A stretch of DNA of 38,361 nt from a virus, in IMG/VR virus record IMGVR_UViG_3300048694_000978, positions 1-38,361 of that record; one strand, 5' to 3'. The position numbers and the translations under genes were made by a program. Every line of letters starts with the position of its first letter. Position 1 is the stretch's first letter. Of the stretch, positions 2,876-38,361 are shown one piece after another. The notes below the pieces were generated by a model. That model was not told the DNA's origin, made no database searches, and saw only the letters and a list, made by a program, of their open reading frames with translations.

Positions 2876-2899
2876 GTCAAATACCTGTTTCTATCTATA

Positions 2900-2907
2900 T
2901 ATTTATA
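2900..2907 (-). promoter_or_regulatory. T4-type late promoter (TATAAATA)
   Basis: Minus-strand TATAAATA, an exact match to the T4-like late promoter -10 element read by gp55-programmed RNA polymerase. It overlaps the last codons of the 201-aa gene and lies 24 nt before the ATG of the 509-aa fibre gene, so transcription should start about 18 nt before that ATG. It gives the two distal fibre genes their own late transcript. Confidence 0.7.
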
Positions 2908-3508
2908 CGGTGTTAATGTTACTCAGCGTCTGGATTCGCAGAGTGTAATCGATTTGAATCTGTCTATTCAAACTTTTCTGAACTGGGTGAAAAATCACAT
3001 GCGTAATTAAACGCAAGTCATCAGATGCGCCGTTCCAGGTTTTTAAGCCCAGCTCATCAAAAACAAATTCACCATTGAAGTTGGTACTGTTGTCAAACGC
3101 TTGCTGGTTAGGAGGCTCGCCATAATCCAACAAACAAGTTACCAAAATGTCGCTGTATGTCTTTCCCGAAGTATGCAAAACTGTCATTTTGTTAGCCTGG
3201 GGATCTGTATCTGCTGCTGAGTTGTCGTCAACAACTTTGGCATAGGTTTGATTATACAAATCAGCATTTTGGCCTACTACGTTTGGGGGCAGGTATGTGA
3301 TGACGCCAGTGGGGTCCACCGAACTGCCACCGTTGCCAAATGCCATTTGGTAGATGAATCCTGTATCACGGTTTGACAAAGTCTGTGCCATTGCAATCGA
3401 AATGTTTTCGTAATTGATGGCATTTTTCTTATCCACAAATACTTCACCGCTAACTGGGTCGTGTATTTTCAAAAATCCTTCGATTTTGGCTAGTCCTGGA
3501 ACTATCAT
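2903..3508 (-). CDS. Conserved T4-like phage structural protein, 201 aa
   Basis: 201 aa, beginning MIVPGLAKIEGFLKIHDPV. Its ATG overlaps the stop of the 55-aa gene upstream as ATGA, so the two are probably translationally coupled. The N-terminal part (KIHDPVSGEVFVDKKNAI, then YQMAFGNGGSSVDPTG) is a block I recognise from structural genes of marine T4-like phages, where it sits among tail-fibre and baseplate genes. No enzyme motif, membrane segment or signal peptide is visible. The role is probably a baseplate or fibre-connector protein, inferred from neighbourhood only. The first ~25 residues share a short motif with the C-terminus of the preceding 55-aa protein. Confidence 0.75.
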   Translation of the reverse strand: MIVPGLAKIEGFLKIHDPVSGEVFVDKKNAINYENISIAMAQTLSNRDTGFIYQMAFGNGGSSVDPTGVITYLPPNVVGQNADLYNQTYAKVVDDNSAADTDPQANKMTVLHTSGKTYSDILVTCLLDYGEPPNQQAFDNSTNFNGEFVFDELGLKTWNGASDDLRLITHVIFHPVQKSLNRQIQIDYTLRIQTLSNINTV

Positions 3509-3690: not shown

Positions 3691-6600
3691 TTAAAAATTG
3701 CATAGGAATCTTGCTGCTACAGTGTTGGTTTGCTGCAAAGCTACCCCATCACTAGCAGTGTCAACACCACGATGATACCAAGTTACACCGTGTCTTACCA
3801 GTGCTGTAACTTCTTGCCCAGCAGGCGGTGCTGTATCAAATGTCACGGTTACTACATTGTCAGCGATATCAACCGCAAATCCTTGTAACTGGCGTATTCC
3901 GCCCACGTACACTTCAACGCTTCCTTCGATGATGTTAGTACCCAAATTATTGGCAACAAACTGCACTGTGGAACCATCGCCCATGGAAGTATCTCTACTG
4001 ATGTAGTCTTGATAGGACAACTGCAACAAGTTACCGCTGTTCATGTCATACACCAATGCACCAACTGTGTGTTCTGCTGCACCTGTTCCGGCAGTTCCTC
4101 GTAACAAACTGCTGATAGAGTTAGTTGCAACATCACGTGTTCTGTACATGATTCGTTCACCGTCGATGGTAACAACACCAAATATACCTTGATCTAAATC
4201 AGGGTCGGGCAATACTGTGACGTCGTCAACGTAGATAATGTCTGCTGTGGCCGAAACATCTTGTGCAACTGCTGTGGTTGAAGCATCTGTGATGCGATAT
4301 GTTGCTTGCACGCCTCGCATGTCTTGGAATATTCTAAATGCACATGCATCAGGCACAACACTTTCTGTAAATTCAGTCACTACCAAAATTTGATTGCTTT
4401 GAATTGCCCCAGCGGCCAAAATCAAGTAGTCGCCTTCGATATTGAAGTCAACTCCATCTACCAGTCGCTCACCATCTAGTGTAACCCACAAACGATAGCC
4501 CGTGACATTTGGTCTATTCAAGTAGAAATTATTGCTAGGTATTACATGTCCAATCAAGTAATTAAAGCTATCGGGCAAGTTTGCATAATCTACCACAGTC
4601 CAATAACTGGTATTGGTTACAGCAGTTCCTGCAGGCACAGACTGGATTGCCTGATAAAATACAGGAGTTGTTCCAGCAGCTGGAACACCCGGTGATGAGT
4701 ATACTTGTGTGTACACCAATGTACCACTGGCATAAGAATCAGTGCTTGTCCATTCAGCAGCCGAAGACGTTTCTAACGGAGCGTAATCTGTGCTGTTGTA
4801 TGCTTCTACTTCAGCAATACCTCGGTAAGAAGGTCCAACAAATACCAAAGTAACCATATCCTGCTCGCTGGTATCATTGAATGTGGTGATTGCTAACTCG
4901 TCGCCAATGTTTACTGTAGATACAATTTCAACATAAGGTGTTGGATCTGTTGCATACACAATGTAATCAGCTAATGTACTGACAGATATCAATATTGTAT
5001 CTCCAGTGGTAGGAGCTGTAAAGAATGACACTTGTCGATTTGGATTGGATCCTGTCACTGCATAATCCATGCCTTGCACTTGAATTCTGTCGTTGAGCCA
5101 CACTTGAATTTCTGTAGCTGCATCAATGGTGTCTTGATTCAAGCTGCCTAATGTTGTGGGCAATCCAAACGATGTAGTCACGCTATTTCCAATGTGCTCA
5201 ATGCCTGCTGGAGGAGTCAAGCGGAGGCCATTGCGAACCACAATCATGTTAGCAGCATTGGTGCCGCCCACATAGTTGGTCAAGTCAACAGTCTTGCTGT
5301 CAGCAATGGCAGAATCAACTGTAACATACTGTGTTACTGGGGCACTCCAAATTCGTTGAGGCTGGTTGGTAATTCCTAATACCACAACAGTTACCAGGTC
5401 AGTGCTTTGGACTTCCACCGGTACTGTGACTATTGTGTTTCTTAGAGGACCTGTAAACTGCAAATTACCAGGCAATGCATGAGCACTCGGTTGCCAATAT
5501 TCAAAATTGGTCAACAGTATACCAGTTGGCACAGCCTTGATTGCTCTGTAGTAGATATAGTGAGAATCATACACTACGTCATTGTATGCATAAGAACTAT
5601 AGATGCTCCATTCGGTGCTTGGAGCATAATATGGTCTCCAAATTTCAGCGTTGGTAGGTGTTCCGTTTACAAAGAACACAATCGAATCAACTCCTACATT
5701 GCTAACTGGCAACACTAGACTTTGTCCAATTTGATCTCCAGTGTAGGTGTTGCGATAAAGTTGGCTACCGCCACCGATTTCGTAAACATCAACGTTGATT
5801 ATATCACCAACGCTAACATTGTCCAACATGGTAACAGTTTGTGCTGCCCAGTCAATGGTGTAATCGGTTCCTGGATTTAGTTGCAGTCCAGTTGTTATGT
5901 TACTAACAATTAACTCTGTAGGAGTATCAACAGCATTAGCCCAACTCCAAGCATCGCCAGAAATGTCAGCGTCAAGTTGGAATCTTACGGAGCCAATTTG
6001 GAAACCGTGACCGTTGCGTTCCCAATCGCTACCAGGGCGGGTATAGATACGCATGTCCATGGTGTCGTATTCAGCGCCATTAACCAATTCTTCTGGAGCA
6101 TAATTTTCAAATGCGCCTACAAATTGGCCGCCATCGACGTTAACGTCAGTGGGTCTGGTTCCCAAAAATACATCTGTAAAACTGCTTTCGTAAATTGCGT
6201 CTAACGCATCGATATAGGTGAAGTCATGCCCGAATACTTGCACACCAGGGAAATCTACACCGTTAACCAACAATGGCAATTCTAATCCGGGTTCGTTTAT
6301 ACCAGGAACATAGTAGCCCATAGTACGATCAACCCCGCTGAGGTCAGCAGCAGATACTTCTGTCCACTGCGCTAAATTAAACTCGTCTGCTGGACCGTTA
6401 TCTTCTGTGGCTTCCCATACTGAATCAGTATATCGAACTCTATCTCCAACAACATAAATTCCGCTAGTGCTCCATGCGTCGATAGCACTGGAATACTGAT
6501 ATCTATCAAACTTGATAGTTGTCTTGAACGACCGTACATTTGTAAGACTCAATACACTATCGGTATCAGCTTCCCATTCTGCCACGCTAACTGGAGGATT

Positions 6601-9600
6601 TACATTATACACAAACTCATCGAAGTCTGCGGCATTGCGGTTTACCATCACTGCGTATCCTCGAGCACCGGTGCCTGTTGGGCTTTGGATTATCACTGTT
6701 GGTGTGGTCAAGTACCCTTCGCCTGGAGAAACCACATTGATTGCAACAACATGCCCTTCAGAATCTATTACCGCTTCGGCTTGTGCTTGCACTGAGGCGT
6801 CGCCTTGGATTATTACTGAAGGCACTGATGTATAACCAGAACCTTGATCCAGCAATTTTACAGAACGCAAGGACAGCAGGTAATTGCCGATCCACTGGCT
6901 GTATGGCCATTCACTCCACAACACACTGGTAGGTGCTGTATCACTGTTGGTGTTAAACAGTTGGTTAGTAGCGTGATCGTACGGTGTTAGAATCGGGCTA
7001 ACATACTGCGGTACAGACAAGTCAGTGTTGTAGTATGCTGGCAGATCAAAGTCAGTTACATCACCTGTGTAGTCATCAGCGCCGTTGTAACTCAAGTTAA
7101 ACTCACGCACTTGCACGTGATATGGCTTGACTTCTTGTAAGTAATCGCTAACGAACGTTTGATTGTCACGCAAATAGTTCTGGAATGGAATTAATTCACG
7201 AATCTTATGATCAACGTCAATCAAGCTGGTCTTGACCAACCACTCAGGTGCTTGCAGTTCGCTGAGTATAAAGTCAAACATCAATGTCAATGATTTATTG
7301 CGATCGATGTAAAGATCATCAATTAGCAATTCTTCATTGATGGCTTGAATAATCTTGCGAGTCTCAACCACCGGTTCTTTGTCGTAGTACTGAGCATCGT
7401 ATACTTCAGAATCAAATCCAAATCTTCCCAGCTCGTAATCATAAATTTCTGCAGAGATAGCAATTGTACCATCTTGCAGACCCACACGTTCCCAGCCAGT
7501 ATCAGTAAACAAATAAATTTCGTATTTGCCTTGTGCGTTGGCTGTGACTTTCACGCTGGTGCCTACAGACACTGATAGCTGTGACAAGCTTGTGTAATTG
7601 GCTACTTCAAAAGAAATCTTAGAACTGGAGTTATAGCCAGGCATGTACCAATTGATGTAGTTCCAATAATTAACAGTCTTGTAGTTTTGAACTCGTGTTA
7701 ACAACAAAGTTCTAACATCAGTTGTGCCTTGTTCAATCACCACTGTATAGATTGTCCATAGACCTTGGTTACTGCTGTCGTAATCGACCAAATAGGTATA
7801 TCCCAAGTCAACTGCATAAATGTCTTGGTAGCTGAGTATTTCCAAATTAGCAACTTGAGCATCCCATGCACCAGAGTTGGCCGAAGGAATTGGTTCTTCA
7901 CTGTTGAGCAGAACAAAGCTGCGTGTTTCGCTGATAGGATACAGTGCTAACACTGAATTAACATGCGTGATATAATTCTTCAGCGCCAGGAATCTGTCTA
8001 CAAACATGCTTTGGCGTGGTCGAACTTGAATGCCATACTGCTGACTAACAGGCAGGCGTGGGTCTGGAACCTTGTTACCAAATGTATCAAAACCGCAGAA
8101 ACTGTCTTGTAACTTTCTGTACAATGCAGCGCTCAAGAAAGCTTCTGGACGACCTTGTGCAATCAATTCATACTCGGCATGCACGTTGGCATCATTGAGT
8201 TGCTGGTCAAACTCCACGCTGATTATGGTATCGGCTGCATTTATATACTGCAATCCGTTGTAGATAGCAATAGTGCTTGAGTTAATTGGTGCAATGTAAC
8301 TGATGCCGCTGCTCTTAGGACTTTCAATGTACTGGCTTACTGTCAGCGCACTAAGTGTCTTGCCTTGCTGTGTTGCAACTGTGGTTACATTTCTTACCCA
8401 GAAATAGTAACTGGTTACAAACAGTCCATCGTGTGTTAACTGTGTTTCGATTACATAGCTGTCAATACTCTTGGGTGTCCCAACTCCAACATAGTTTACA
8501 GGAGGAACAGAACTTTCGATCCATTGATATACATCGATGCGACTGCCCGGAAACACTTGACCCCAGCGACGACTTGCATACACAATATCGTCCTGGTTGG
8601 GATCAATAAAGCGAACTGTGGAAATATCCCACCACATTTCACCCAAGTGGTTTTGTCCCCAACGGTTACCAGCATTGTTTAGATATCCTACATTGTATTC
8701 CGCTGGATCAACTGCGCCAATGTAGTCCAAGTTTTGCTGAGCAGCGCCCAGAATCTTGCCTTGCAGAGGATCAAAGAAATCAAAGAATTCTGTGCGCTCT
8801 GAAGTGATTCGGTCATACATGTACACGCTGTTCAGCAAGTAGATATCAACAACAGGTTGCTGTTGATGAATCACTGCCCATGCAGGTGTGTCAGTTGGAT
8901 TTTCGAATACAAATGCTGCGCCCGAATCTTGTGTTTCATTCTCTCCATCGTCATTCAATGGAGCACCAGCTACCAACGCACCTGAGTTAAAGTTCACAGC
9001 AGTTCCATAGGTGTCGTATGGGTTGACATTGATATTGGAAATTTGTTGTCCAAATACAAACTTACCTGGGTTGGCAACTGAACTGGTCGAGCTTGGGAAA
9101 TAATCAAATGTATAAACTGCTCCGCTGACATTAACTGGGGAGAAGAACACAGTGTTATTGCCGTCAAATGTAGTAGTGGGCTTTTCTAATGTAGAATTGT
9201 AATCAAATGTATTTGGCAAATATAAACTTGCACCCGGTGCACCTACTGCTATGCTTAGAGCAGTATTGTTAACCGAAACGCTGTAGCCAAATGCTCCAAA
9301 GTCTACAGGGAATGGATTGGAAATAGTTTCTGCATAAGCAAACTCTTCAAATCCAAAACTGGAATATACTACACCTGTCGACCCAGGTGCCACTTGAAGT
9401 TTATCTCCAACAGTGGCTGCATTGGAATTTGTTACAGAAATGGTCAAGTATCCATCTGCATCAACAGATGCTGTGGCATTGGGTGCGCTGGCATTGATTG
9501 CGGCAGCAAGTCCTGTGGCATTGTTGTTTGGCAGCGCAGGGACTGCGATGTCTACATTGTTTACACGCAGGGTTTCGCCAGCAACCAATTCTGGATCTGC

Positions 9601-12600
9601 AACAGTTGCTGTAATTGTTCCATATGTTCTAGCTTGAGCAACACTGCGTTGCACCACGCCACCTTTCCAGGCTGTGGTACTGTCTTGCGGAGCTCCGATA
9701 TACAAACTGCAATTGTAAGGACACAAATCCAGTGACTGACCAAAGTTAACAAACTCTGCAGGTGTGTTTTGTGTTATTTGTTGTTGTAACACAAATTGAT
9801 TTGTTTCAATTTCGATTACATCGCCAACATTGACTGTGGCATAGATGGTAACAGTGCTTCCGCTAACTGTGAATGAGTTATCGGAGTTCAATATTCCATT
9901 TGCTTGGTTGGTCAAGAACTGATTGTTGAGTATCACGCTCACTGGAGCAGAGACAGATCCCAGAACTGTTATACTGGTTGTGGTAGAATCAGCTGTGGCA
10001 ATGAATTTTTGTACGTTTCTATCGTAAGCGAATACTTTGCCAGCTTCAACTTTTCCATCAACTGTGATATTTCTAGCACCAACCAGCAGTTGTCTACCAT
10101 CGCTGCTGCATTGTACACTGTGACCAAATCTATCACCCACTGCTGGCGCACTAGGTGTTAACTGTGTTACCAGTTGATAATAACTCTTGGACAGCACTGT
10201 GACGTCGTCGTTTATTCCTGGGGTAGTAACAAATGTTATTACGCCACCGGTCATTGTGTAATCAATATTAGGACGCTGTTCGACTTTGTTCACGGTCACC
10301 AAACATGCGTAGATATTGCTCATTCCAAACAAATATGGATTGATGTTATAGGAAGCAGAACCTCCGTCAAAGTTCCAGCCAGTGTTTCTGCTGATAACAA
10401 CACTGTCGCCGGCTGCTAGTTCGCTTGCAAAATCAACACTGCTGAAATCACCTGCTACTGTGTAATCTGTTCCTAGTACCAATAATGTATCATTGACTGT
10501 AACAGAAATTTGTAGTGAATTATTAATTTGAATTTGACTGGCAATGTTTATAGTATCAGTCACTGCTGGCAGTATTGTGCGTATTTCTTGCACAGGAACA
10601 CCCACTTGGCCGTATGCATAAACTTTGTTAACACCTGGAGCTCCAACATATAACCAACGCTCATCTTGACTGACAGCAACTGAATAACCAAACTCGCCAG
10701 CACCAGGTGTGGTACTAGATGTAGTTCCTGGCAATGTCAACACTTGGCTGACTACAAATGGATTTGCGAATCCTTTGGCTGCGGCAACAGGATCATAGTA
10801 CAGCACTGCACAGTATCCGTTGTTGGCTTCGCCATTGGGTCCAAGGCTGGCACTTGCACCGGCTGCGGCCCAGGTCAATGTACCAAAATCAACTGCGTTT
10901 CCAAATCCTCTTGTGCCAATTGCCTCCAATTTAATTGTTTCATCTACATTACCTGTGGGATTCACGGGCTCATATTGGCTGGTGTAGCCTTTTAGATAAA
11001 CATAAATGCTGCCAATTGGTTGGTTGCTGTCATTTTTGTAGCCAGGGCTTCCGACCAACATGGCATTTTGACTCTTGGCCTGTGCAATACTGCTGCCGTA
11101 CAACTGATTGTCAGCAGGAGTATAAGGATGGAATTCTCGACGAGTTTGGAATGGGTTTTTCTTTTCCAATACTTCCCACATGCCTTGTCCGTCGTTGTCT
11201 ACCCAGGCCTTGGCGCCAGGTAAAATTTGTTTGCTGTAAGGCAGTGTGCTGATGTCGCTGGCCTGGGCCACTCGCATGGTCTGCAAGGTAAAACCAATGC
11301 CGTTACCGTCTGCTACTGTGCGACCGCCAGTGAATGTAAATGCAATATTAACAGTGTTGACATCGCTTACACTGAGTACTTTGTACACGCCGTTGACTTG
11401 ACTGTCAAAGAATCTAATAATCAATGTGTTGCCCACAGAAAGACCATGCACACCTGAGAAAATTACTCTGCTTGTGCCGTTTAAGTTGTCACAAACGTGC
11501 TGGATTGTTCCTGGGATGCCTTGAGCTCTGTAAATGTTCCAGTCGTAGTCGTTGACTTTTGCTACCCAAATACTGGTACCATTGCTGATAGAGTTGATAT
11601 TTGCATTCAAGCTTGCAGGATTTGAAAGTTCAAATACGCTGATGTCAACGTCGTCTAAGTTAACATAACCAGCTGACGGCAAACTTGTATCGGTGACTGT
11701 AGTGGTAGTGGTAGGTAGAATGTCAGGTGTTGTCAACGCAAAACTGCTCTTCCACACATCATTCAACAAAACAGTTTGATCTGCTTGGCTCTGTTGCTGC
11801 GGCAATATTACTTCTACTAGCACAGGATCGCTGGTTAGATATTCTCTATTCAAACGCAAATCAATAAAGCTGCGGTTGGCATTTGCTCCATACACAGAAC
11901 GTTGGATTGCCCAGTTTTCGTAGATGGTATAGTCAGCTGCTTCTTTTCCTAGGTTAGCACGAGTCAACAAGTCTGCACTGAGAATTGTACCTTTGGATCC
12001 AATGAACTCTCTGTAGACATTCAGCTGACTGACGTCATCCAAGTTAAGTGCTGTGAAGTATTGACGAGGTCTAAATCCAATCAATCCATAGCTCAACAGG
12101 TCGTTATCTGTTTCCAAGTTGGCAGAGTTGATGTTATAGCTATTGGCCAATTGATTGGCCTTGTTGGCCAAGTTAGGCAACAGTCCTTGTTGAATCAAGG
12201 TGTAATCACTTTGATTCCAGTCATTGTAATTGAATGTGGTGCTGGGCTGTACAATAGTGGCAGCACTCCAGTACTTGTTTTTGTACTTGACCAACTGACC
12301 TTTTGGATAGGTCTTGAGTCCAGTCCATTCTTCAATGTTGTCTTGGTTGAGAATAAAGCCTTGTGCATCAACACTGCCATTCCATTCTGTAGTGGTTGCA
12401 GCTACCAAACTCAAACGACTTTGTCTTGCACCTGTAATAGGCTCATAAATCAAATCGCCAAACAAGCTGGTGTTGTTGAGCACAATCATGCTTTCGAAAC
12501 TGGTAAAGCGCATGTCAACAAAGCTCAAGCTCTGGTTATTCAGTGGAGCAATTGTAAATGTGTTGTCGAGTCTAACAATGTTAAGATCGCGAACAGGAAA

Positions 12601-15600
12601 CTCACGCTTGTTTTGATCCAACATCACATGTTCAGCAGTTTGTGCAGACACACTGTCAACCACTGCCAATGGTTTGGTGATTGACAACTTGTATGCCAAC
12701 GGATTCAAGTTAATCAATGTGCCAACGCCCCATCCCTGGTTGCTCCAGTACAGGAATTCTTGTACCATTTGGTCCCAGTTAAGGATATAGCCGTTGTCTC
12801 TATCAGTGAATGTAAATCCATCTTGTTCTAACAGCTTGCCATAACTCAATAAGAAGGTAGCTACCGCAGTTTGGGAATTAAACACATAACCATAAGGTAC
12901 TTGTGTGATATCTTGGCTGTAGAATGTGGGAGTTTGAATTGTGGTTCCGCCGACAGTGAACGTTTGGAATTGTCCAACTGGAACACTGGTAAGAGTTTCA
13001 AAGAACGGACGATTCAGCGAATATCCATACACTGCCCATCCATCTTCTACCACTTGAATAACCACCGAACTGTACACACTGTGATCAAACGGTTGATTCT
13101 TATACAACAGCAAGTCATAACTTTCATCAGGAATCAACAGCGCAGTATTTGTGGACGCAGGGCTGGACTTTTCTGTATAAATTTTAATGTATTGCTTGTC
13201 GCTGAAACTGGCCATACGATAGCACAAGCGCACATCGATGTTAGCCAAATCATTTTGTAGGGCCACGGTGGAGTCTTGGCCTAGAATTCTATTGTAATCA
13301 ACAATCCAGTCAATGTAGCTGGCCTTGCTCACACCATTGCCATACACTTGAACGTTGGTGTTTTCGGGCTGGTTAGGATTGTTTCGAGTACTCAAACGAT
13401 AACGATCGTCGTACAGGTACTGATTAAACTCTTCGTTATAGCGATACAAATCGCGATCAGCAAATAACGCAAAGAATTCTGCTGGGCGAGTCAGTGCCAA
13501 TAGGCGCATGGCTGCAAATGGATAGTCACTGCTGTTCCACCATGACGCTTCAACTGGGCCGCCATCGCCAACCTTCCAGCTCTTTTGGAATGTGTTGTTT
13601 GCATAAACACCAACCACGCAATCCAACGGAGCCAGCAATGCGCCTTCGCTGCTGGTTGGCAATACCTTGCTCAGACCTGGACGAGCGTACTGAGGAAGCA
13701 CATAAGGAGCCACAGGATCGCGAACCAATCCTGCTTCCAAATCATCCCATAACACTTGGTTGTCACGAGTGTATGGAGCAGGACCGTAAGTTATTTCCCA
13801 CCAGTCTGGTCGCTTGGAGAAGCCCAACATTTCCCATGGTGTTTCTTCGGGCTGTTGAGTATCATAGAACCAACGATAAATGCCGCGCCAGGCTCCCAAC
13901 AACGGTTGATTGTCCAAGGTGTTCAAACTTTGACTGTAGTTGAAACTAAATGTGTTTGAAGCATTGTAATCTTGTGTGGTATAATCTAACTTGTTCCAGC
14001 CCACATAGCTCAAGAAACTTTCAGACAGTATGTCATTGATTTCTGTGTAGCTGTAACCTGTGTCTCGGAATTGGCCGGGAATTACATCACTCAATTTGAG
14101 AGGAATTGGGTTGTCATCCAGTTTCAAGTTGTTGTAGATTCGTGTTTCGAATTCCAACAATACATCATCGCGAATGTCATTGAACACTGGAGTTTGACTG
14201 CCGTCGTGTCCGACGATGACTGAGGTTGTTCCTGTGGTTGTTTTCACTGGAATAATGCCTGGTTTGAATGCAGGGTACAAGCCCAACTTGGTCGGGGTGT
14301 TGGGAACAAATGTACCGTATGTGGCTTGATATTCTTGTATGGTGATAACATCGCCTGTTTGCAGTCGAGCAAAACGTGCCGGCAATATTGTTATTGTTGC
14401 ACTGTCGGTTCCAACACTGTAATCAACACCGCGAGTTTGAATCACGTTGTTGATATAAACGTTCATGCCTTGGTAATTGGCCGACGCATAATTGTAAATG
14501 TACAAGGTAGAGAATGTGTCTGTGGTAATGTAACCCAATGTGTATGTTGTGGTCTGGTAAACTTCACCAGCTGGCAACATGTCACTCCAATAGAATGGAT
14601 TGCTATCTGTTCTACCAAGAATAACTTCGTTAAGCACATAATCCAACAATTGACTTGTGGTAATGTTGTAAGAAATAGTTTGGCGTGTGGTTGCTTCCAA
14701 CAACTGATTCTTGTATTTCTGATACTCACGGCTGTTGTATTCCAATGCTGCAAATACATTGTACTTGGTTGAGCGCATGAAATAGCCAGCCATGGTCAGT
14801 GGACTACTTTGTTGAAGAATCAATTGACCATAAGGAATAATATCGCCAAGGTCACGGGTGTTATTGGCTCCATTGATTGGTCCAACTAGATCTGTAAGGT
14901 TTTGACAAATTGTTTGGTAGTGTGTGCGAACAGTACCCAGTGTAAAATATTCACTGTTGGCATTAAGTGGATTTTGTTGCAAGTTTGTTGGTACTTGATA
15001 GAAACCAACTGCACTGGTTTGATTGCTGAGTACTTCAACTTCGACCACTTGACCAATCACATGAGAGGTAATAAAGCTAATAGTGGTTGTAGTATCTGTT
15101 CTTGCAACAGTGTATGTGCTGGGATTTTGAAACTGCGATCCAACAAATACTTTTACTGCAGGTACTGTGGTCACTTGATCAGTTAATGCAGCCACATCCA
15201 GCAACAGTGGTTGACCATTGTATGTGAATTTGAACTGCTGTCTAATCAGTGTGGGTGTAATGGCCGATTGCCAGCCCAATAGTCTATCATAGGTGGTACG
15301 GTCAATGTATTCTCTTGGCCATCCTTGGCTGATATTGCGTGTTTGACTTACGTTGTCAATAACATAGATGAAAGTATCTTGATAAAGGTTGTTATCAAAA
15401 ACAATATCGCCAACATTGCTTAATGTTAGATATTGCAATTGGAATTGCAATACTGGGTCAATTGTACCAACGCCTACTGCATAGCTAAACAACTTGCTGC
15501 CGCGGAATGTAGAACTAGGATATACAGTATTATTGCTAAAACTGATTCCGTTAGCGTCGTAAACATCATAAATCGGTGGTTGCTGAATTGCTGTTTTTTG

Positions 15601-18309
15601 CTGTGCTTCAGCCCATTCAACACCGTCATACCAGTAAGTAATGCCAGCATCGTCGCCATCTAACACTACTGTGGATTGATCAGCAAGTATTTCAGCATCG
15701 TCTGCTGGGATCAAATTAATCACTGGTTCAGCAAATGTAGCTGTACCAGTACCAGAACCTGCGTTAACAACCAAAATAGTATCACCAACTGCATAAGTTT
15801 CGCCGGTGGTGTCTGCAACTTGGTTCCAATCAGTGTTGCCCAATGTTGCAATAGTGTAACGAGCATGCAAATGGAAATTGCCTGCTGTGGTCAGCGGAGT
15901 AGAATTCGGTACTATAAAGTTAACAACATAAATTTTATTGCGTACATTGGCATCTAAATCAGCGGCAAAAATTATTCTGCTGCCATTGACCACTGTATAA
16001 CCGTTTGTGGTATAGCTCAATGAGCCTTCAATGTCACTAAATGCATCAGTTGCGCCGAAGTCAATGACATTGACAGGTTGTTTACCTTCAGTGCCCATAT
16101 TAAACAAACGAATGCCGGGGCGGAATTGAATAATTGGTCGCTTGGCTCGATTGTTGTTGTCTAATGCCACGGTGGTATTGTTATATGACCCTGTGGCATA
16201 CAATACGTCTATGTGGAACCAGCGGTTGCTGCGGCTCCAAGCATTTAGGTCTCGGCTGGCTCTGCTGATTGTGATATAATCGTGATCGCTGGGCTCAACA
16301 TAAACTGTTTCTGTATTGGCATCTGTAGCATACGATTCAGGAACAATAAAGTTATCAACTGGCAACAGCTCAATGGCTGTACCCACTCCGCTGACATAGT
16401 ACTCTCTGTTGGCGCTGGCTGTGGCGTACATGAGATTGTCTGGCGGTGCAGTTGCTCCAGTTAACGGCAACGCAGGGCCACCTTTTACTTCAGAAATAGT
16501 AAATTGTGTGCTGCTAAAAATTTGATCAACATAATACACTGTTTCAGGTTCAATGCCGCCAATGGTTGGAGAATTGAAAACAATTTCCAAACCGCGCTCC
16601 AAGCCCTGAGTAGTTGTACAGTTAATAAAGTTAATAGTTGCCGAGGTAGACAAACATGTGACAGGAACACTGCCGGACCAATAGGATCTTGGATATACTT
16701 CTCCAGTAAATTTAACCTTAAGGCCATTAGTAAATGTAACACCATTGGGATATTGATCCGTTACAGGACTGGTATATGTTTTTCTTCCAATGATTTCTGT
16801 TATGTTTAATACTGCATTGCTGGTTTGTTCAACTAACTTAATAGTTCCAAACATGTCAGGATTGAGAGCATCTTGATAATACAAAGTATCTTGTACTGCG
16901 CTCAATAACGGAATTCTCTCAAATGTCAACGACGGATTTTTATACCATTGTGTATTGGCGTAAACAGTGCCATAGGCGATGGAAAATTTGTCAAGAGCCG
17001 CAATACCAAATGCCGATGACAACGAAATGTATTGAACATCGTCCACAGTTACAAAGCTGATTGTCCAAGCCACAGCTTGATCAGCTGTATTACCATTGTT
17101 AAATGCCAATGTCAAACCATCCATGTTGGCAATACCATCAATGCCACCATACTGTGCCAAGAAGTCTAAGAGATTTGCGCCGTCGATCTGATCAAAGTTT
17201 AATGTAGTTAACAAATCAACTGTGCCAAGGTCATTTAGGGTATAATAAAAATTCTGTGCTGTCTTGGTTGGCACGTTGAATGTTATTGTACCTAAGTTGG
17301 TACCGTTGTTGACCACACCAAGTACATCTCTAGTGCTTAGATTTGGGCTGGTTACATTTCGGCCAGTGACTCCAGGTGCTGTTTGAATCCAGAATCCAGG
17401 TCCAGTTGCATTGTCAGCGTTGACAATGGCAAAAGAGCCGTGCATGTTGGCATTGTTCTGTGCAGCGTAGTACAGTATGTCTGGAGCATCTTGAGGAACT
17501 GTGAAAATAACTGTGCCAGTGCTGTTCCCGTTGTTGGTCACACCAGAATTGTAGGCATCGCCAATTCCGGTTGTGGGCTGTGTTTTAATCCAGAATGGAT
17601 ATGCTGCCACAAGGTTCAATGTAAACACATAAGTGTTGCCGCGAACCAAAGTCAGTGTGGGATTGGCTTGATAATCTATCAAGTAACTTGCAGTGCCCGA
17701 ATTGGTCACACTGTAGTTTATTGTTTGCTTGATGTTGTTGGCTATTTGGAAAGTATAGCTGCCGCCACGGACCAAAGTGATGATAGGGTTATCACCAGAC
17801 TCTCCAGAAAAAGTATATGCACCGTTTCGGTCCACAGCAAAGTTTTCAGTAAATGGCACCGAGCTGGCAAAAACATCAACAACATCAGGGCCGTTAGGTA
17901 CCCAAAAATATTGACTGAAGTTTACAAAAGCATCAAAGTCAATGAACGGGTCCCAAGTGTAGTAGTCACTGGTGAACAGTCGATCGGGACGATTGCTGTC
18001 TGCGCCTTGAAAACTCAATGCATCCAAGAGGCCAGGATAAGTGATTGCATCTTGAATTTCAGCTGTGTCCGCAGGATTCAAGCTGACAATGCCCGGCTCC
18101 AGCTGATAGTCTGTGCGTGTTTTGGTAGGTTCGACAACATATTTGTCATTGGGGTTTACGCCCGGACCCACTGAACGTCCGATAAAGCCCTGAGTCTTTT
18201 TGAATTTTGGTTCTTGAACTAGTTGATCAAGGGTAGCAGCTAAAAATTGCTTGTTAGCATCAGTCTGAAAAATTTCAGGAAGAAAGTCTACACTTCGAAC
18301 TCTTGACAT
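3691..18309 (-). CDS. Giant 4872-aa mosaic virion structural protein
   Basis: A single uninterrupted frame of 14.6 kb. Its ATG overlaps the gp6 stop as TAATG, so it is coupled to gp6. The N-terminus (residues 1-150, VRSVDFLPEIFQTDANKQFL and SQYFWVPNGPD) and the region ~3140-3800 (LIPFQNYLRDNQTF, EVKPYHVQVREFNL) look like the conserved core of very large marine T4-like virion proteins. Modules seen: a cupredoxin-like region with degenerate copies (~173-356); a YTIATLGNTDWNQV module (~813-860); CBM5/12-like aromatic modules (~1992-2034, 3941-3985, 4229-4276, 4516-4573); seven FG-GAP-like blades (~2400-3136); a GSGYTSVPSVIIQG double repeat (~3821-3890); at least nine VxVNxxxxxxGxDYxV beta modules; and a TIDGERIMYRTRD-type module near 4700. 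Position after gp6 matches T4 gene 7, so a wedge or peripheral baseplate role with surface-binding arms is inferred. Confidence 0.85.
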   Translation of the reverse strand: MSRVRSVDFLPEIFQTDANKQFLAATLDQLVQEPKFKKTQGFIGRSVGPGVNPNDKYVVEPTKTRTDYQLEPGIVSLNPADTAEIQDAITYPGLLDALSFQGADSNRPDRLFTSDYYTWDPFIDFDAFVNFSQYFWVPNGPDVVDVFASSVPFTENFAVDRNGAYTFSGESGDNPIITLVRGGSYTFQIANNIKQTINYSVTNSGTASYLIDYQANPTLTLVRGNTYVFTLNLVAAYPFWIKTQPTTGIGDAYNSGVTNNGNSTGTVIFTVPQDAPDILYYAAQNNANMHGSFAIVNADNATGPGFWIQTAPGVTGRNVTSPNLSTRDVLGVVNNGTNLGTITFNVPTKTAQNFYYTLNDLGTVDLLTTLNFDQIDGANLLDFLAQYGGIDGIANMDGLTLAFNNGNTADQAVAWTISFVTVDDVQYISLSSAFGIAALDKFSIAYGTVYANTQWYKNPSLTFERIPLLSAVQDTLYYQDALNPDMFGTIKLVEQTSNAVLNITEIIGRKTYTSPVTDQYPNGVTFTNGLKVKFTGEVYPRSYWSGSVPVTCLSTSATINFINCTTTQGLERGLEIVFNSPTIGGIEPETVYYVDQIFSSTQFTISEVKGGPALPLTGATAPPDNLMYATASANREYYVSGVGTAIELLPVDNFIVPESYATDANTETVYVEPSDHDYITISRASRDLNAWSRSNRWFHIDVLYATGSYNNTTVALDNNNRAKRPIIQFRPGIRLFNMGTEGKQPVNVIDFGATDAFSDIEGSLSYTTNGYTVVNGSRIIFAADLDANVRNKIYVVNFIVPNSTPLTTAGNFHLHARYTIATLGNTDWNQVADTTGETYAVGDTILVVNAGSGTGTATFAEPVINLIPADDAEILADQSTVVLDGDDAGITYWYDGVEWAEAQQKTAIQQPPIYDVYDANGISFSNNTVYPSSTFRGSKLFSYAVGVGTIDPVLQFQLQYLTLSNVGDIVFDNNLYQDTFIYVIDNVSQTRNISQGWPREYIDRTTYDRLLGWQSAITPTLIRQQFKFTYNGQPLLLDVAALTDQVTTVPAVKVFVGSQFQNPSTYTVARTDTTTTISFITSHVIGQVVEVEVLSNQTSAVGFYQVPTNLQQNPLNANSEYFTLGTVRTHYQTICQNLTDLVGPINGANNTRDLGDIIPYGQLILQQSSPLTMAGYFMRSTKYNVFAALEYNSREYQKYKNQLLEATTRQTISYNITTSQLLDYVLNEVILGRTDSNPFYWSDMLPAGEVYQTTTYTLGYITTDTFSTLYIYNYASANYQGMNVYINNVIQTRGVDYSVGTDSATITILPARFARLQTGDVITIQEYQATYGTFVPNTPTKLGLYPAFKPGIIPVKTTTGTTSVIVGHDGSQTPVFNDIRDDVLLEFETRIYNNLKLDDNPIPLKLSDVIPGQFRDTGYSYTEINDILSESFLSYVGWNKLDYTTQDYNASNTFSFNYSQSLNTLDNQPLLGAWRGIYRWFYDTQQPEETPWEMLGFSKRPDWWEITYGPAPYTRDNQVLWDDLEAGLVRDPVAPYVLPQYARPGLSKVLPTSSEGALLAPLDCVVGVYANNTFQKSWKVGDGGPVEASWWNSSDYPFAAMRLLALTRPAEFFALFADRDLYRYNEEFNQYLYDDRYRLSTRNNPNQPENTNVQVYGNGVSKASYIDWIVDYNRILGQDSTVALQNDLANIDVRLCYRMASFSDKQYIKIYTEKSSPASTNTALLIPDESYDLLLYKNQPFDHSVYSSVVIQVVEDGWAVYGYSLNRPFFETLTSVPVGQFQTFTVGGTTIQTPTFYSQDITQVPYGYVFNSQTAVATFLLSYGKLLEQDGFTFTDRDNGYILNWDQMVQEFLYWSNQGWGVGTLINLNPLAYKLSITKPLAVVDSVSAQTAEHVMLDQNKREFPVRDLNIVRLDNTFTIAPLNNQSLSFVDMRFTSFESMIVLNNTSLFGDLIYEPITGARQSRLSLVAATTTEWNGSVDAQGFILNQDNIEEWTGLKTYPKGQLVKYKNKYWSAATIVQPSTTFNYNDWNQSDYTLIQQGLLPNLANKANQLANSYNINSANLETDNDLLSYGLIGFRPRQYFTALNLDDVSQLNVYREFIGSKGTILSADLLTRANLGKEAADYTIYENWAIQRSVYGANANRSFIDLRLNREYLTSDPVLVEVILPQQQSQADQTVLLNDVWKSSFALTTPDILPTTTTTVTDTSLPSAGYVNLDDVDISVFELSNPASLNANINSISNGTSIWVAKVNDYDWNIYRAQGIPGTIQHVCDNLNGTSRVIFSGVHGLSVGNTLIIRFFDSQVNGVYKVLSVSDVNTVNIAFTFTGGRTVADGNGIGFTLQTMRVAQASDISTLPYSKQILPGAKAWVDNDGQGMWEVLEKKNPFQTRREFHPYTPADNQLYGSSIAQAKSQNAMLVGSPGYKNDSNQPIGSIYVYLKGYTSQYEPVNPTGNVDETIKLEAIGTRGFGNAVDFGTLTWAAAGASASLGPNGEANNGYCAVLYYDPVAAAKGFANPFVVSQVLTLPGTTSSTTPGAGEFGYSVAVSQDERWLYVGAPGVNKVYAYGQVGVPVQEIRTILPAVTDTINIASQIQINNSLQISVTVNDTLLVLGTDYTVAGDFSSVDFASELAAGDSVVISRNTGWNFDGGSASYNINPYLFGMSNIYACLVTVNKVEQRPNIDYTMTGGVITFVTTPGINDDVTVLSKSYYQLVTQLTPSAPAVGDRFGHSVQCSSDGRQLLVGARNITVDGKVEAGKVFAYDRNVQKFIATADSTTTSITVLGSVSAPVSVILNNQFLTNQANGILNSDNSFTVSGSTVTIYATVNVGDVIEIETNQFVLQQQITQNTPAEFVNFGQSLDLCPYNCSLYIGAPQDSTTAWKGGVVQRSVAQARTYGTITATVADPELVAGETLRVNNVDIAVPALPNNNATGLAAAINASAPNATASVDADGYLTISVTNSNAATVGDKLQVAPGSTGVVYSSFGFEEFAYAETISNPFPVDFGAFGYSVSVNNTALSIAVGAPGASLYLPNTFDYNSTLEKPTTTFDGNNTVFFSPVNVSGAVYTFDYFPSSTSSVANPGKFVFGQQISNINVNPYDTYGTAVNFNSGALVAGAPLNDDGENETQDSGAAFVFENPTDTPAWAVIHQQQPVVDIYLLNSVYMYDRITSERTEFFDFFDPLQGKILGAAQQNLDYIGAVDPAEYNVGYLNNAGNRWGQNHLGEMWWDISTVRFIDPNQDDIVYASRRWGQVFPGSRIDVYQWIESSVPPVNYVGVGTPKSIDSYVIETQLTHDGLFVTSYYFWVRNVTTVATQQGKTLSALTVSQYIESPKSSGISYIAPINSSTIAIYNGLQYINAADTIISVEFDQQLNDANVHAEYELIAQGRPEAFLSAALYRKLQDSFCGFDTFGNKVPDPRLPVSQQYGIQVRPRQSMFVDRFLALKNYITHVNSVLALYPISETRSFVLLNSEEPIPSANSGAWDAQVANLEILSYQDIYAVDLGYTYLVDYDSSNQGLWTIYTVVIEQGTTDVRTLLLTRVQNYKTVNYWNYINWYMPGYNSSSKISFEVANYTSLSQLSVSVGTSVKVTANAQGKYEIYLFTDTGWERVGLQDGTIAISAEIYDYELGRFGFDSEVYDAQYYDKEPVVETRKIIQAINEELLIDDLYIDRNKSLTLMFDFILSELQAPEWLVKTSLIDVDHKIRELIPFQNYLRDNQTFVSDYLQEVKPYHVQVREFNLSYNGADDYTGDVTDFDLPAYYNTDLSVPQYVSPILTPYDHATNQLFNTNSDTAPTSVLWSEWPYSQWIGNYLLSLRSVKLLDQGSGYTSVPSVIIQGDASVQAQAEAVIDSEGHVVAINVVSPGEGYLTTPTVIIQSPTGTGARGYAVMVNRNAADFDEFVYNVNPPVSVAEWEADTDSVLSLTNVRSFKTTIKFDRYQYSSAIDAWSTSGIYVVGDRVRYTDSVWEATEDNGPADEFNLAQWTEVSAADLSGVDRTMGYYVPGINEPGLELPLLVNGVDFPGVQVFGHDFTYIDALDAIYESSFTDVFLGTRPTDVNVDGGQFVGAFENYAPEELVNGAEYDTMDMRIYTRPGSDWERNGHGFQIGSVRFQLDADISGDAWSWANAVDTPTELIVSNITTGLQLNPGTDYTIDWAAQTVTMLDNVSVGDIINVDVYEIGGGSQLYRNTYTGDQIGQSLVLPVSNVGVDSIVFFVNGTPTNAEIWRPYYAPSTEWSIYSSYAYNDVVYDSHYIYYRAIKAVPTGILLTNFEYWQPSAHALPGNLQFTGPLRNTIVTVPVEVQSTDLVTVVVLGITNQPQRIWSAPVTQYVTVDSAIADSKTVDLTNYVGGTNAANMIVVRNGLRLTPPAGIEHIGNSVTTSFGLPTTLGSLNQDTIDAATEIQVWLNDRIQVQGMDYAVTGSNPNRQVSFFTAPTTGDTILISVSTLADYIVYATDPTPYVEIVSTVNIGDELAITTFNDTSEQDMVTLVFVGPSYRGIAEVEAYNSTDYAPLETSSAAEWTSTDSYASGTLVYTQVYSSPGVPAAGTTPVFYQAIQSVPAGTAVTNTSYWTVVDYANLPDSFNYLIGHVIPSNNFYLNRPNVTGYRLWVTLDGERLVDGVDFNIEGDYLILAAGAIQSNQILVVTEFTESVVPDACAFRIFQDMRGVQATYRITDASTTAVAQDVSATADIIYVDDVTVLPDPDLDQGIFGVVTIDGERIMYRTRDVATNSISSLLRGTAGTGAAEHTVGALVYDMNSGNLLQLSYQDYISRDTSMGDGSTVQFVANNLGTNIIEGSVEVYVGGIRQLQGFAVDIADNVVTVTFDTAPPAGQEVTALVRHGVTWYHRGVDTASDGVALQQTNTVAARFLCNF
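8902..11112 (-). other. Seven-bladed FG-GAP-like beta-propeller inside the giant protein
   Basis: Residues ~2400-3136 contain seven spaced units of the form (F/Y)G-x-S-V-x(6-15)-L-x-V-G-A-P, followed by a G-x-V-Y-x-Y strand: LYGSSIAQ..MLVGSPGY; FGNAVDFG..AAAGAS; FGYSVAVS..LYVGAPG; FGHSVQCS..LLVGAR; FGQSLDLC..LYIGAPQ; FGYSVSVN..IAVGAPG; YGTAVNFN..LVAGAPLNDDG. The count and motif match the integrin-alpha/FG-GAP propeller pattern. Unlike a plain propeller, extra beta modules are inserted after blades 3 and 4. Ligand or protein binding is the usual role of such propellers; the partner here is unknown. Confidence 0.6.
17242..17793 (-). other. Degenerate cupredoxin-like repeats in the giant protein
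   Basis: Residues ~173-356 hold three related segments: ITLVRGGSYTFQ (173), LTLVRGNTYVFTLN with FWIKTQPTTG and LYYAAQNNANMHG (216-296), and FWIQTAPGVTGR with ITFNVPTKTAQNFYY (303-356). The middle copy follows the cupredoxin layout in which a C-x(2-4)-H-x(2-4)-M copper loop normally precedes the last strand. Here the Cys and His positions are Ala and Asn, and only the Met remains. The fold is probably kept and metal binding lost. Confidence 0.5.
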
Positions 18310-34934: not shown

Positions 34935-35369
34935 ATGACATGGCTCTATCAAAATCAACCAGTGGAAACTCTCCCAGAAGATTGCGTGGGCTTTGTCTAC
35001 ATGATTACCAATATCACAAATCAACGCAAATACATAGGCAAAAAACTAGCAAAATTCTCTCGAACCACTCAAAAAACAGTTAAACTCAAAAACGGCAACA
35101 AAAAGAAAAAGAAGATTCGAACCAAAGTTGATTCAGATTGGCGGGACTACTACGGTAGCTCACCAGAACTAACCAAAGACGTAGAACTTCTTGGCAAAGA
35201 AAATTTTCAAAGAGAAATACTTTTTTATTGCAAAAGCAAAGCAGAGTGTAGTTATATAGAAGCAAGAGAACAGTTTTCACGGCGTGTGCTTGAAAGTCAA
35301 GACTGGTACAACGGTCATATTCAAGTTCGCGTCCACGGCAGCCACATAATCAACAAACTCAACGGTTAA
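34935..35369 (+). CDS. Small GIY-YIG nuclease-like protein
   Basis: 144 aa from the ATG at 34935; an overlapping ATG four bases earlier is in another frame that closes after about 50 codons. The GIY-YIG core is seen at 19-37 (GFVYMITNITNQRKYIGKK). A basic insertion (KNGNKKKKKIR) follows, then WRDYYGSSPELTKDVELLG and a Glu in YIEAREQ (~109). Close relatives are common in T4-like marine phages and are usually labelled putative endonucleases. It has no clear DNA-binding tail, unlike the 254-aa enzyme, so it may be a domain-only nuclease. The ribosome site is poor, and it lies 37 nt after gp46. It ends the plus-strand operon. Confidence 0.82.
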   Translation: MTWLYQNQPVETLPEDCVGFVYMITNITNQRKYIGKKLAKFSRTTQKTVKLKNGNKKKKKIRTKVDSDWRDYYGSSPELTKDVELLGKENFQREILFYCKSKAECSYIEAREQFSRRVLESQDWYNGHIQVRVHGSHIINKLNG

Positions 35370-35815: not shown

Positions 35816-36046
35816 TTAGAAGAAGTTCATTCCTGTTTTCTTTGTTGTTTCCATGTTTTCTTTGATGAGTTCACCAATGGCTTGGCGTTCGTGTTGGCTC
35901 ATCATCAGCACTTGATCGTAAGGAATACCACCGCGCATGTACCATGTTAGCTTGATGCTATCTGTTCGTATTTGTTTGGCCTCCTGCTGTAGGCCGTCGA
36001 TGTAGTGTTGTATCTCGTCGTGGGTAGAGGTCAGGAGGCGTTGCCG
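35816..36046 (-). CDS. -1 frame extension of the gp26-like protein (frameshift product)
   Basis: A 76-codon frame, -1 to the gp26-like gene, from CGG at 36046 to TAA at 35816. It has no ATG, GTG or TTG near its beginning and no ribosome site, yet it encodes a sensible helical peptide with DEIQHYIDGLQQEAKQIRTD, KLTWYMRGGIPYDQV and NMETTKKTGMNFF. I recognise similar small proteins next to gp26 in marine T4-like phages. It is probably made only as a fusion of residues 1-276 of gp26 to these 76 (352 aa in all) by -1 frameshifting at the slippery site. In lambda the equivalent fusion, gpGT, links the tape measure to tail-tube protein. Confidence 0.75.
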   Translation of the reverse strand, partial: RQRLLTSTHDEIQHYIDGLQQEAKQIRTDSIKLTWYMRGGIPYDQVLMMSQHERQAIGELIKENMETTKKTGMNFF

Positions 36047-36052
36047 AAAAAA
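35979..36052 (-). promoter_or_regulatory. Predicted -1 programmed frameshift signal
   Basis: Slippery heptamer T_TTT_TTC (36052-36046, minus strand) is in the right phase in codons 274-276 of the gp26-like gene. After a 6-nt spacer, GCCTCCTG (36039-36032) is perfectly complementary to CAGGAGGC (35986-35979), an 8-bp stem around 45 nt that could stall the ribosome. A smaller alternative stem (GGCCT/AGGCC) overlaps it. The zero-frame stop follows four codons after the heptamer. Confidence 0.72.
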
Positions 36053-36873
36053 AGCGCAGTGTCTAACACAAACGATTGTTCATATTCATGCTGGCATTCT
36101 GGGCACTGTAAATTTATAGGCTTGAGGTCATCGGCTGTGCGTAGTTTCACTGCATGATCTCGAATTTCTGTAAACAGTTGACCATCGCAGTTGCTCAAGA
36201 ACTCTTCAATATACTCTGGTTCCACAACCACGGCTTGCGGAGTTCTGATAGCTGCAATGCTGAATTTCATGGCTTGCAGCGTGATCTTTGTGATTTCAGT
36301 CAGCACATTGTTTAGCTTGGCGTTGCGTTCTTCTTCACTGATTTCTGCATTTGGCAAGTACTGCAACATTCGCTGCTGTTCAAACTGCATGAGGTTAATG
36401 GTATTTTGATCCTTGTAGCTCATGGGTTTGAAGAAAATTTCAAGGTCTCTGTAGTTGATTGTAGCGGTGAAATCGCCGGGTTTTAGTTGATCAATCACCT
36501 GTCTTAGATCCACCCCATAAGTGTTTTCAGTGCTGCAATTTGGGCATTTGGTAGTCAAGTCAATTTCGTTGCCATTGCTGGCAATACGTATGGCAGTCAA
36601 GATTGTGTTGAGGTCAATGCCCGGAACTTGCCAAGCGTCCTTGATTGCAGGAACGCAACTTTGTATTACCTGCACCACTGCGTCACCGTTAAACAGCGCA
36701 TCTGGGGTGCGATAGCTGATTTCATCCAGTGCAGTCATAGGCAGCACGCCCAGTTCGTTGTTTGGGGGCATATCTAAACTGCCTTTGGGCCAGTATTGAC
36801 CTTCTGAAGGCAGTCTAATGTATAGAGCAGGTTGGCGAAAATAATTCGCCAATGGATTGGATGTTTGTGTCAT
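36031..36873 (-). CDS. 26: gp26-like zinc-binding tail/baseplate assembly protein
   Basis: 280 aa. Cys pairs C110/C113 (KCPNCSTENTYG) and C257/C260 (QCPECQHEYEQ) probably bind one zinc. The N-terminus (NYFRQPALYIRLPSEGQYWP) and ILTAIRIASNGNEIDL and IFFKPMSYKDQ follow the family called gp26 (baseplate hub assembly) in T4-like phages. T4 gp26 is 208 aa. The -1 frameshift near the C-terminus makes a longer fusion, which is how tail-assembly chaperones such as lambda G/GT work, and the divergent neighbour is the tape-measure gene, their usual partner. The family assignment is from memory of conserved motifs. No late-promoter match was found before it. Confidence 0.8.
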   Translation of the reverse strand: MTQTSNPLANYFRQPALYIRLPSEGQYWPKGSLDMPPNNELGVLPMTALDEISYRTPDALFNGDAVVQVIQSCVPAIKDAWQVPGIDLNTILTAIRIASNGNEIDLTTKCPNCSTENTYGVDLRQVIDQLKPGDFTATINYRDLEIFFKPMSYKDQNTINLMQFEQQRMLQYLPNAEISEEERNAKLNNVLTEITKITLQAMKFSIAAIRTPQAVVVEPEYIEEFLSNCDGQLFTEIRDHAVKLRTADDLKPINLQCPECQHEYEQSFVLDTALFFGNAS

Positions 36874-36916: not shown

Positions 36917-38361
36917 ATGGCCAACATAAATGACGATTTAGCCGCAGCACTTGAAGCTGCCCAGCGTGAGTTTGAAACCCTGGGCAAAGTCACTGACGCC
37001 ACAGCGGCTCGTTTGAAAGTGGCTCAAACAGCAGTTGACCAGTTCAAAGAAAAGATGAACTTGGCGGCCAACGCCAGTTCAGCATTGTACAGAACATTTA
37101 CTTCTTACAACCGAGCAGTCACTGACGGAATCAAAGGCTACAAAGACCTAGCTGACACAACAGATAATTTGGCCACCAGCATTGAAGCTCTTTCTGCTGC
37201 GCTGGCATTTGTGTTGCCCATTGGGCGTGTGGCCAAAATTGTCACTGCTGGACTAGGGTTGCTAGCTGGAGAATTGGTAAGAACCAGCAAAGCAGTGGGC
37301 GAGCAGTTGGATGGCCTGCGTTCGGGTTTTGATGAGCTAGCGCAAATAGGCGCAACCACAGCAGGTGGCTTGACTGACATGTTTGAAGCCATGCAAAAAG
37401 CAGGGCTCAGTGTCAAAGACTTTCCAAATTTTGCTAAAACTCTAGCAGAAAATGGGCAAATATTATCGCAGTTTGGGGGCACAGTAGTTACAGGTCGTAA
37501 CGCGGTGTTGGATCTAGCCAATGATCTCAAACCCATGCGTAACGAGCTACAGAACTTTGGTGTGCGAATCGAACAAATTGGGGAAGCCAGTTTGTCATTT
37601 ATCAAGAACCAAAAGCTCATGTCCATGGGTACCAATGCCAATTTGAACATGGGCGCTCAGGCCATGATGAAATACACTCAGGAGCTGGACACCCTGGCAC
37701 GATTGACAGGCATCAACACAAAAGAACAAGAAAAGATCATGGAAGACGCCATGAGTCGTGCTAGCTTTGCTGCTACAATCGATCAACTGCTAGCCGAAGG
37801 GAAAAAAGACGAAGCTAACGCAATACAGCAAGCTCAAATGTATTTTGCTAGATTGGGTCCTGAATCTCTGCGTGGATTCCAAGACAGTATTTCGGGTTTT
37901 GTGGGCACTACAGATGAATCCAACAACTTGTTCTTGGCGTCAAACGGAGCACATTTAGAATACATTGAAAAGCTCAAAGACGGCACCTTAAAAACTGAAA
38001 AACAAATTGCTGAAGGTGCTCAAGGTGTGTATCGTGCATTGACTGATGTCAGTGAAACAATTGGACGCAATGCAGCCATGCTAGGCACCAGCTTTGGCAC
38101 CATGTATCCTGAAACAAGAAAAGCAAAAGATCTTGCATCTGCCAGCATTGAGCAACTGGTCGAAACGGCAAAAGAAGAGCAGAAGAAACGTGACGAAGCC
38201 CTTAACAACTATAACAAGGGACTGACCAAAGCCAATGACGAGATGATAAAAAACCAAAAAGTGTTGCAAGCACAGGTTGGTAGATATCAGGCAATGATTG
38301 AAGGCACTACAACAGGACTGGGTGCGCTTAGTACCGCTGCAACCGTTGCAGCAGAAGCTTT
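36917..38361 (+). CDS. Tail tape-measure-like protein (C-terminus outside window)
   Basis: Starts MANINDDLAAALEAAQREFE at 36917 and stays open to the right edge, about 481 codons visible. It is strongly helical with long heptad-like stretches (residues ~5-60 and ~400-440) and one hydrophobic segment around 88-120 (ALAFVLPIGRVAKIVTAGLG), as in tape-measure proteins that fill the tail tube and later insert in the host membrane. Other blocks are LKPMRNELQNFGVRIEQIG and LDTLARLTGINTKEQEKIME. Known role: sets tail length and leaves the tail during injection. The assignment rests on composition, late promoter and the neighbouring frameshift-type assembly gene; a homologue of T4 gp29 cannot be claimed directly. 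No clear Shine-Dalgarno sequence. Confidence 0.65.
   Translation, partial: MANINDDLAAALEAAQREFETLGKVTDATAARLKVAQTAVDQFKEKMNLAANASSALYRTFTSYNRAVTDGIKGYKDLADTTDNLATSIEALSAALAFVLPIGRVAKIVTAGLGLLAGELVRTSKAVGEQLDGLRSGFDELAQIGATTAGGLTDMFEAMQKAGLSVKDFPNFAKTLAENGQILSQFGGTVVTGRNAVLDLANDLKPMRNELQNFGVRIEQIGEASLSFIKNQKLMSMGTNANLNMGAQAMMKYTQELDTLARLTGINTKEQEKIMEDAMSRASFAATIDQLLAEGKKDEANAIQQAQMYFARLGPESLRGFQDSISGFVGTTDESNNLFLASNGAHLEYIEKLKDGTLKTEKQIAEGAQGVYRALTDVSETIGRNAAMLGTSFGTMYPETRKAKDLASASIEQLVETAKEEQKKRDEALNNYNKGLTKANDEMIKNQKVLQAQVGRYQAMIEGTTTGLGALSTAATVAAEA

Follow-up and report, generated by a model that had tools for sequence, protein, structure and literature searches.

The window analyzed here is a 38,361-base IMG/VR virus record with T4-like gene content, including baseplate wedge, hub/tail lysozyme, and gp46- and gp47-like nuclease subunits. 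On its minus strand, at 36031..36873, lies a gp26-like ORF of 280 aa (TAC-N). Alone in the 38-kb record, this ORF matches PF12322 (E 2.6e-14; 53.9 bits, cut-off 24.5), a family that T4 gp26 and T4 gp51 both match as well, and it also matches phrog_150, labeled 'baseplate hub' (E 3e-17). Its 3' end reads ...GCG CTT TTT TTC GGC AAC GCC TCC TGA, and the slippery heptamer T_TTT_TTC at 36052..36046 of the minus strand, within a run of seven T, is in the correct phase for a -1 shift, as the initial annotation had it. Also as claimed there, the -1 frame continues for 76 codons before it meets a stop (36046..35819; 35816..36046 with the stop codon, minus strand). The post-slip frame, TAC-C, reads RQRLLTSTHDEIQHYI...KTGMNFF, 76 residues, to 35819, and the predicted fusion of TAC-N and TAC-C comes to 352 aa. 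Six nucleotides past the heptamer, beyond the spacer GGCAAC, begins the 5' arm of a putative stimulatory RNA stem, GCCTCCTG (36032..36039, minus strand), to which the 3' arm, CAGGAGGC (35979..35986, minus strand), is exactly complementary, so that the perfect 8-bp pair first noted at this offset is borne out.

Other elements of the window include a single ORF of 4872 aa (3691-18309, minus strand). A SegE-like GIY-YIG endonuclease gene adjoins the chaperone gene (34935-35369, plus strand; PF19835, E 3e-34), and segE in T4 also sits a few genes away from gene 26. Past the 3' end of TAC-C, on the opposite strand, lies a Polynucleobacter-1 RNA (RF01718; 35377-35514, plus strand; 112.5 bits), which also lies downstream of this gene in 4 of 20 divergent phage relatives (L015 4328-4460; L053 3266-3400; L060 4801-4936; L069 3532-3672). 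This suggests that the candidate sRNA is phage-borne; a literature search on it found nothing beyond the 2010 discovery paper.

Divergent from TAC-N is a plus-strand gene, cut by the window end (36917..38359), that is assigned to a tape-measure-like virion protein through the family matches of its relatives. The window copy itself drew no Pfam or PHROG name, nor a match when used in a tblastn search of a phage collection. Its counterpart in one relative (L001) is 774 aa, and in most loci the gp26-like gene stands head to head with a divergent ORF of about 640-930 aa; counted as a divergent ORF of at least 500 aa, adjacency to the tape-measure-like gene is again found in most loci. The relatives' neighbor family matches the corresponding neighbors in CBB, GAP32, RaK2 and 121Q at E values from 1e-26 to 2e-18, and the RaK2 record annotates its copy as similar to tape measure protein. 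A GEAGPE motif near the C-terminus of the neighbor is something we take to point toward tape-measure identity, and on this annotation and motif the gene is called tape-measure-like. In the CBB virion, CBB_251 was detected with 29 peptides, and the virion table goes directly from CBB_247 to CBB_251, without CBB_249 and CBB_250. This pattern, from one study of a relative, is the one that a tail assembly chaperone and its client should show.

Chance alone would give TTTTTTCG 1.6 times in the window, and the heptamer alone therefore proves nothing. Among the 46 stop-to-stop ORFs of at least 100 aa in the window, two have a slippery heptamer of any such kind near the end together with a -1 extension of at least 60 codons. 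The argument thus turns on relatives, which were collected from viral contigs with search patterns that exclude the junction (41 loci with TAC-N, 80 with TAC-C). Every fetched contig locus that reaches the junction has the heptamer, in the correct phase. When 124 loci were scored, comprising 116 viral contigs and 8 isolates (e.g. RaK2, 121Q, PA5oct and Atu_ph07), TTTTTTC was found in 123, the exception being XacN1 with TTTTTTT, and the heptamer stays invariant while the codons around it vary. Of 351 Phe-Phe sites in the long ORFs of these loci, 137 are T_TTT_TTC; about 124 of these are the junctions themselves, leaving a use of about 6% for the rest. The heptamer is also found in isolates at 22-33% protein identity, in S-RIM8, SRB7757, Aeromonas 65.2, Munch, CBB, XaC1, GAP32, Kaldavass, Hallingskeid and pEa_SNUABM_19, and in all 77 distinct cyanophage-type loci. 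The alignment of relatives that the initial annotation called for accordingly spans about 200 related sequences, in which slip site and frame are both kept. Loss of the heptamer with retention of the frame, named there as grounds for rejection, was sought and does not hold for the group, the heptamer being kept wherever the frame is. At the level of sequence, this conservation is the decisive point for a slip site.

The one clear exception is Pseudomonas phage Cygsa01 (L134 2790-2990): its gp26/TAC-C junction has no heptamer, and stop and start codons overlap there as TAATG, a sign that coupled reinitiation may have replaced frameshifting. In LR756508 (L143 about 2700-3035), a gp26 relative also without the heptamer, the C-terminal domain is likely in the +1 frame. 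A second in-phase TTTTTTC occurs at the end of TAC-C in L077 (3222-3228), and likewise in L078, L079, L080, L081 and L082, beyond which the -1 frame is open for another 43 codons.

The heptamer is lost in six phages of the T4 subgroup (T4, JS98, KMB19, Ac42, kvi/RB49 and 50AhydR13PP), and these six have a gene of its own for the long form, gene 51. T4, JS98 and KMB19 retain Phe-Phe at the site, as TTC TTT or TTC TTC, and the need for the slip site is therefore distinct from the need for the residues. T4 genes 26 and 51 belong to the same PF12322 family as TAC-N here, gp51 consisting of the N part plus a C-terminal extension, but unlike the window T4 has two genes and no heptamer. The roles of the short and long chaperone forms were reportedly given to T4 genes 26 and 51 by Vladimirov, Gautam and Davidson in 2022 (Virology 566:9-15).

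The -1 frame behaves as a coding frame. It is kept in all relatives, with codon position 3 the most variable throughout, also before codon 37. AlphaFold2 models TAC-C with a mean pLDDT of 91 and with helices at residues 9-36, 43-47 and 51-71, in line with the protein-like helix predicted initially, and a profile comparison links TAC-C to the RaK2-type TAC-C (E 4e-15). Cyanophage TAC-C corresponds to phrog_634 and matches residues 207-244 at the C-terminus of T4 gp51; TAC-C of the present group has no detectable relation to the T4 and cyanophage counterparts, profile comparisons with cyanophage TAC-C, the gp51 C-terminus and phrog_634 giving no significant link. Comparison of the predicted TAC-N and TAC-C structures with solved structures gave no usable chaperone match.

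TAC-C might instead be a separate protein, made by internal initiation at the ATG of codon 37 (35938) or by termination-reinitiation. That ATG, the only conserved internal AUG, occurs in 60 of 63 representatives, small ORFs are annotated there in Atu_ph07, Phosso, 121Q, Munch and CBB, and a few relatives, Cygsa01 among them, have an ATG that overlaps the stop. The initial statement that the small frame has no usable start thus needs amending to the extent that an in-frame ATG exists, but it stands in that no Shine-Dalgarno-like sequence accompanies this ATG, and a start there would split the domain in two. A conserved start with a ribosome site, the other proposed ground for rejection, was sought in the representatives and not found for the group. 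The ATG is the Met of a WYMRGG motif, with no Shine-Dalgarno-like sequence upstream in the representatives, and initiation there would lose the conserved helix 9-36. The coding constraint is the same in the codons before the ATG. A separate TAC-C would also leave the invariant synonymous bases of the heptamer unexplained. The codon-37 start was rejected on its missing Shine-Dalgarno-like sequence and its position after the helix, and independent synthesis of TAC-C is improbable.

The predicted frameshift is further supported by the RNA downstream of the heptamer. In the window, the 8-bp pairing is the core of the minimum-free-energy structure and the region folds with z = -2.5; for the stem at that offset the shuffle p is about 0.0005, and about 0.11 under a synonymous-codon null. 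The stem starts 5-6 nt past the heptamer in most relatives. When the best stem whose 5' arm starts 3-14 nt past the heptamer was taken from each of 69 representatives, 61% did better than dinucleotide shuffles at p < 0.05, and the enrichment persists under the synonymous-codon null, with 41% below 0.05. No stem excess was seen for control arms starting 20-40 nt downstream in the same representatives. The longest stems have 16 perfect contiguous base pairs (L069 and L101; folding z -6.0 and -4.5). Pairing registers cluster in classes, with sums of 41, 59, 72, 79 and 93. The covariation score is 0.35 in class 79, versus 0.17 in shuffles, and 0.61 in class 59, versus 0.23, scores reached by 0 of 500 shuffles in either class, although the classes were selected by best register, which biases them toward pairing; slid controls score far lower in both. 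Class 72, to which the window belongs (9 loci), has diverged less, and covariation there lends weaker support in the same direction, including a compensatory change from C-G to U-A in L053. A simple stem is weak or not evident in a marine subgroup (L087, L096, L102, L106 and L111) that keeps the heptamer, and the stem signal is weaker in the cyanophage-type loci. It is reasonably likely that in jumbo T4-like phages a long-range stem drives the predicted frameshift, and that while its 5' arm has stayed fixed 5-6 nt after the slip site, the 3' partner has moved several times among registers 41, 59, 72, 79 and 93, the stimulator having been re-invented within the coding region rather than inherited in place.

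A fusion could also be translated from mRNA edited by RNA polymerase slippage on the T run, without ribosome slippage. A run of six to seven T does exist, but it is exactly six T in 121 of the 124 loci, followed by a C that is invariant except in XacN1, and the usual transcriptional slippage sites are longer than a 6-T run. The stem 5-6 nt downstream is, moreover, what ribosomal shifting uses, and slippage by the polymerase has only a very slim chance of being the explanation. That the two frames are a single decayed or mis-sequenced gene, as the direct continuation of the domain in the -1 frame could suggest, is refuted by about 200 independent assemblies and isolate genomes, which share the break at the identical base.

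It is concluded that the gp26-like gene is very probably a tail assembly chaperone gene of the lambda G/GT type, with one mRNA giving TAC-N and, via the predicted -1 frameshift, TAC-NC. What can be read in the DNA is the slip site and its frame, a covarying stem, coding constraint and synteny; slippage, its efficiency and the chaperone role we infer as follows. Most ribosomes would read the gp26-like frame to the TGA and produce TAC-N (280 aa). A minority would be held up by the long-range RNA stem, which starts 6 nt past U_UUU_UUC, and shift back by one base while Phe tRNAs occupy the P and A sites; translation would then continue for another 76 codons, yielding TAC-NC (352 aa). By analogy with lambda gpG and gpGT, the tape measure protein, product of the head-to-head gene, would be coated by many copies of TAC-N and few of TAC-NC, and recruitment of the tail tube protein would fall to the C-terminal helical domain.

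The lambda proteins gpG and gpGT have the tape measure protein as their target and are both absent from the virion (PMC5009743). They likewise comprise a short form and a long form made by -1 frameshifting (PMC5009743), which is the arrangement predicted here. The likeness to lambda that the initial annotation drew is supported by the domain order, the head-to-head tape-measure-like neighbor and the absence of the predicted chaperone from the CBB virion list. However, the lambda sequences are unrelated to those here, the tape-measure-like gene is divergent and not downstream, and TAC-N has zinc-ribbon-like Cys motifs, unlike gpG and gpGT.

The novelty that was implied for T4-like phages is not borne out. 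As relayed by papers citing Vladimirov et al. 2022, frameshifted tail chaperones with poly-T slip sites have already been reported (PMC12846349, PMC10885494): poly-T is a known -1 signal in TAC-N genes of T4-like phages (PMC12846349), and some of these phages carry a short and a long gene instead (PMC10885494). Like the window, the chaperone loci described in these accounts combine a gp26-family TAC-N and its poly-T slip site with TAC-C as a -1 extension. Since both poly-T signals and short/long gene pairs have been reported in T4-like phages, the present finding joins a known kind. In TAC loci of the Vandenendeviridae and Andersonviridae, too, TAC-N has a conserved poly-T slip site close to its 3' end and the -1 frame stays open across the locus, but these are other phage families and the motif is GTTTTT, not T_TTT_TTC (PMC12846349). 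A literature search on frameshifting in jumbo-phage tail chaperones found no matching paper, and the literature searched, in which Vladimirov et al. 2022 is represented by papers that cite it, yielded neither a covarying long-range stimulator nor an extension to RaK2-like jumbo phages. As a detail, a covarying stimulator of this long-range kind may be new.

With the predicted frameshift, the 'baseplate hub' and 'hypothetical' genes of RaK2-like jumbo phages become one frameshifted chaperone gene, and the slip site is extended to very distant T4-like phages. The stem offers a good case of covariation for a phage frameshift stimulator. Together, the comparison shows a switch between frameshifting, where the heptamer is kept, and the separate genes 26 and 51 of T4, where it is lost.
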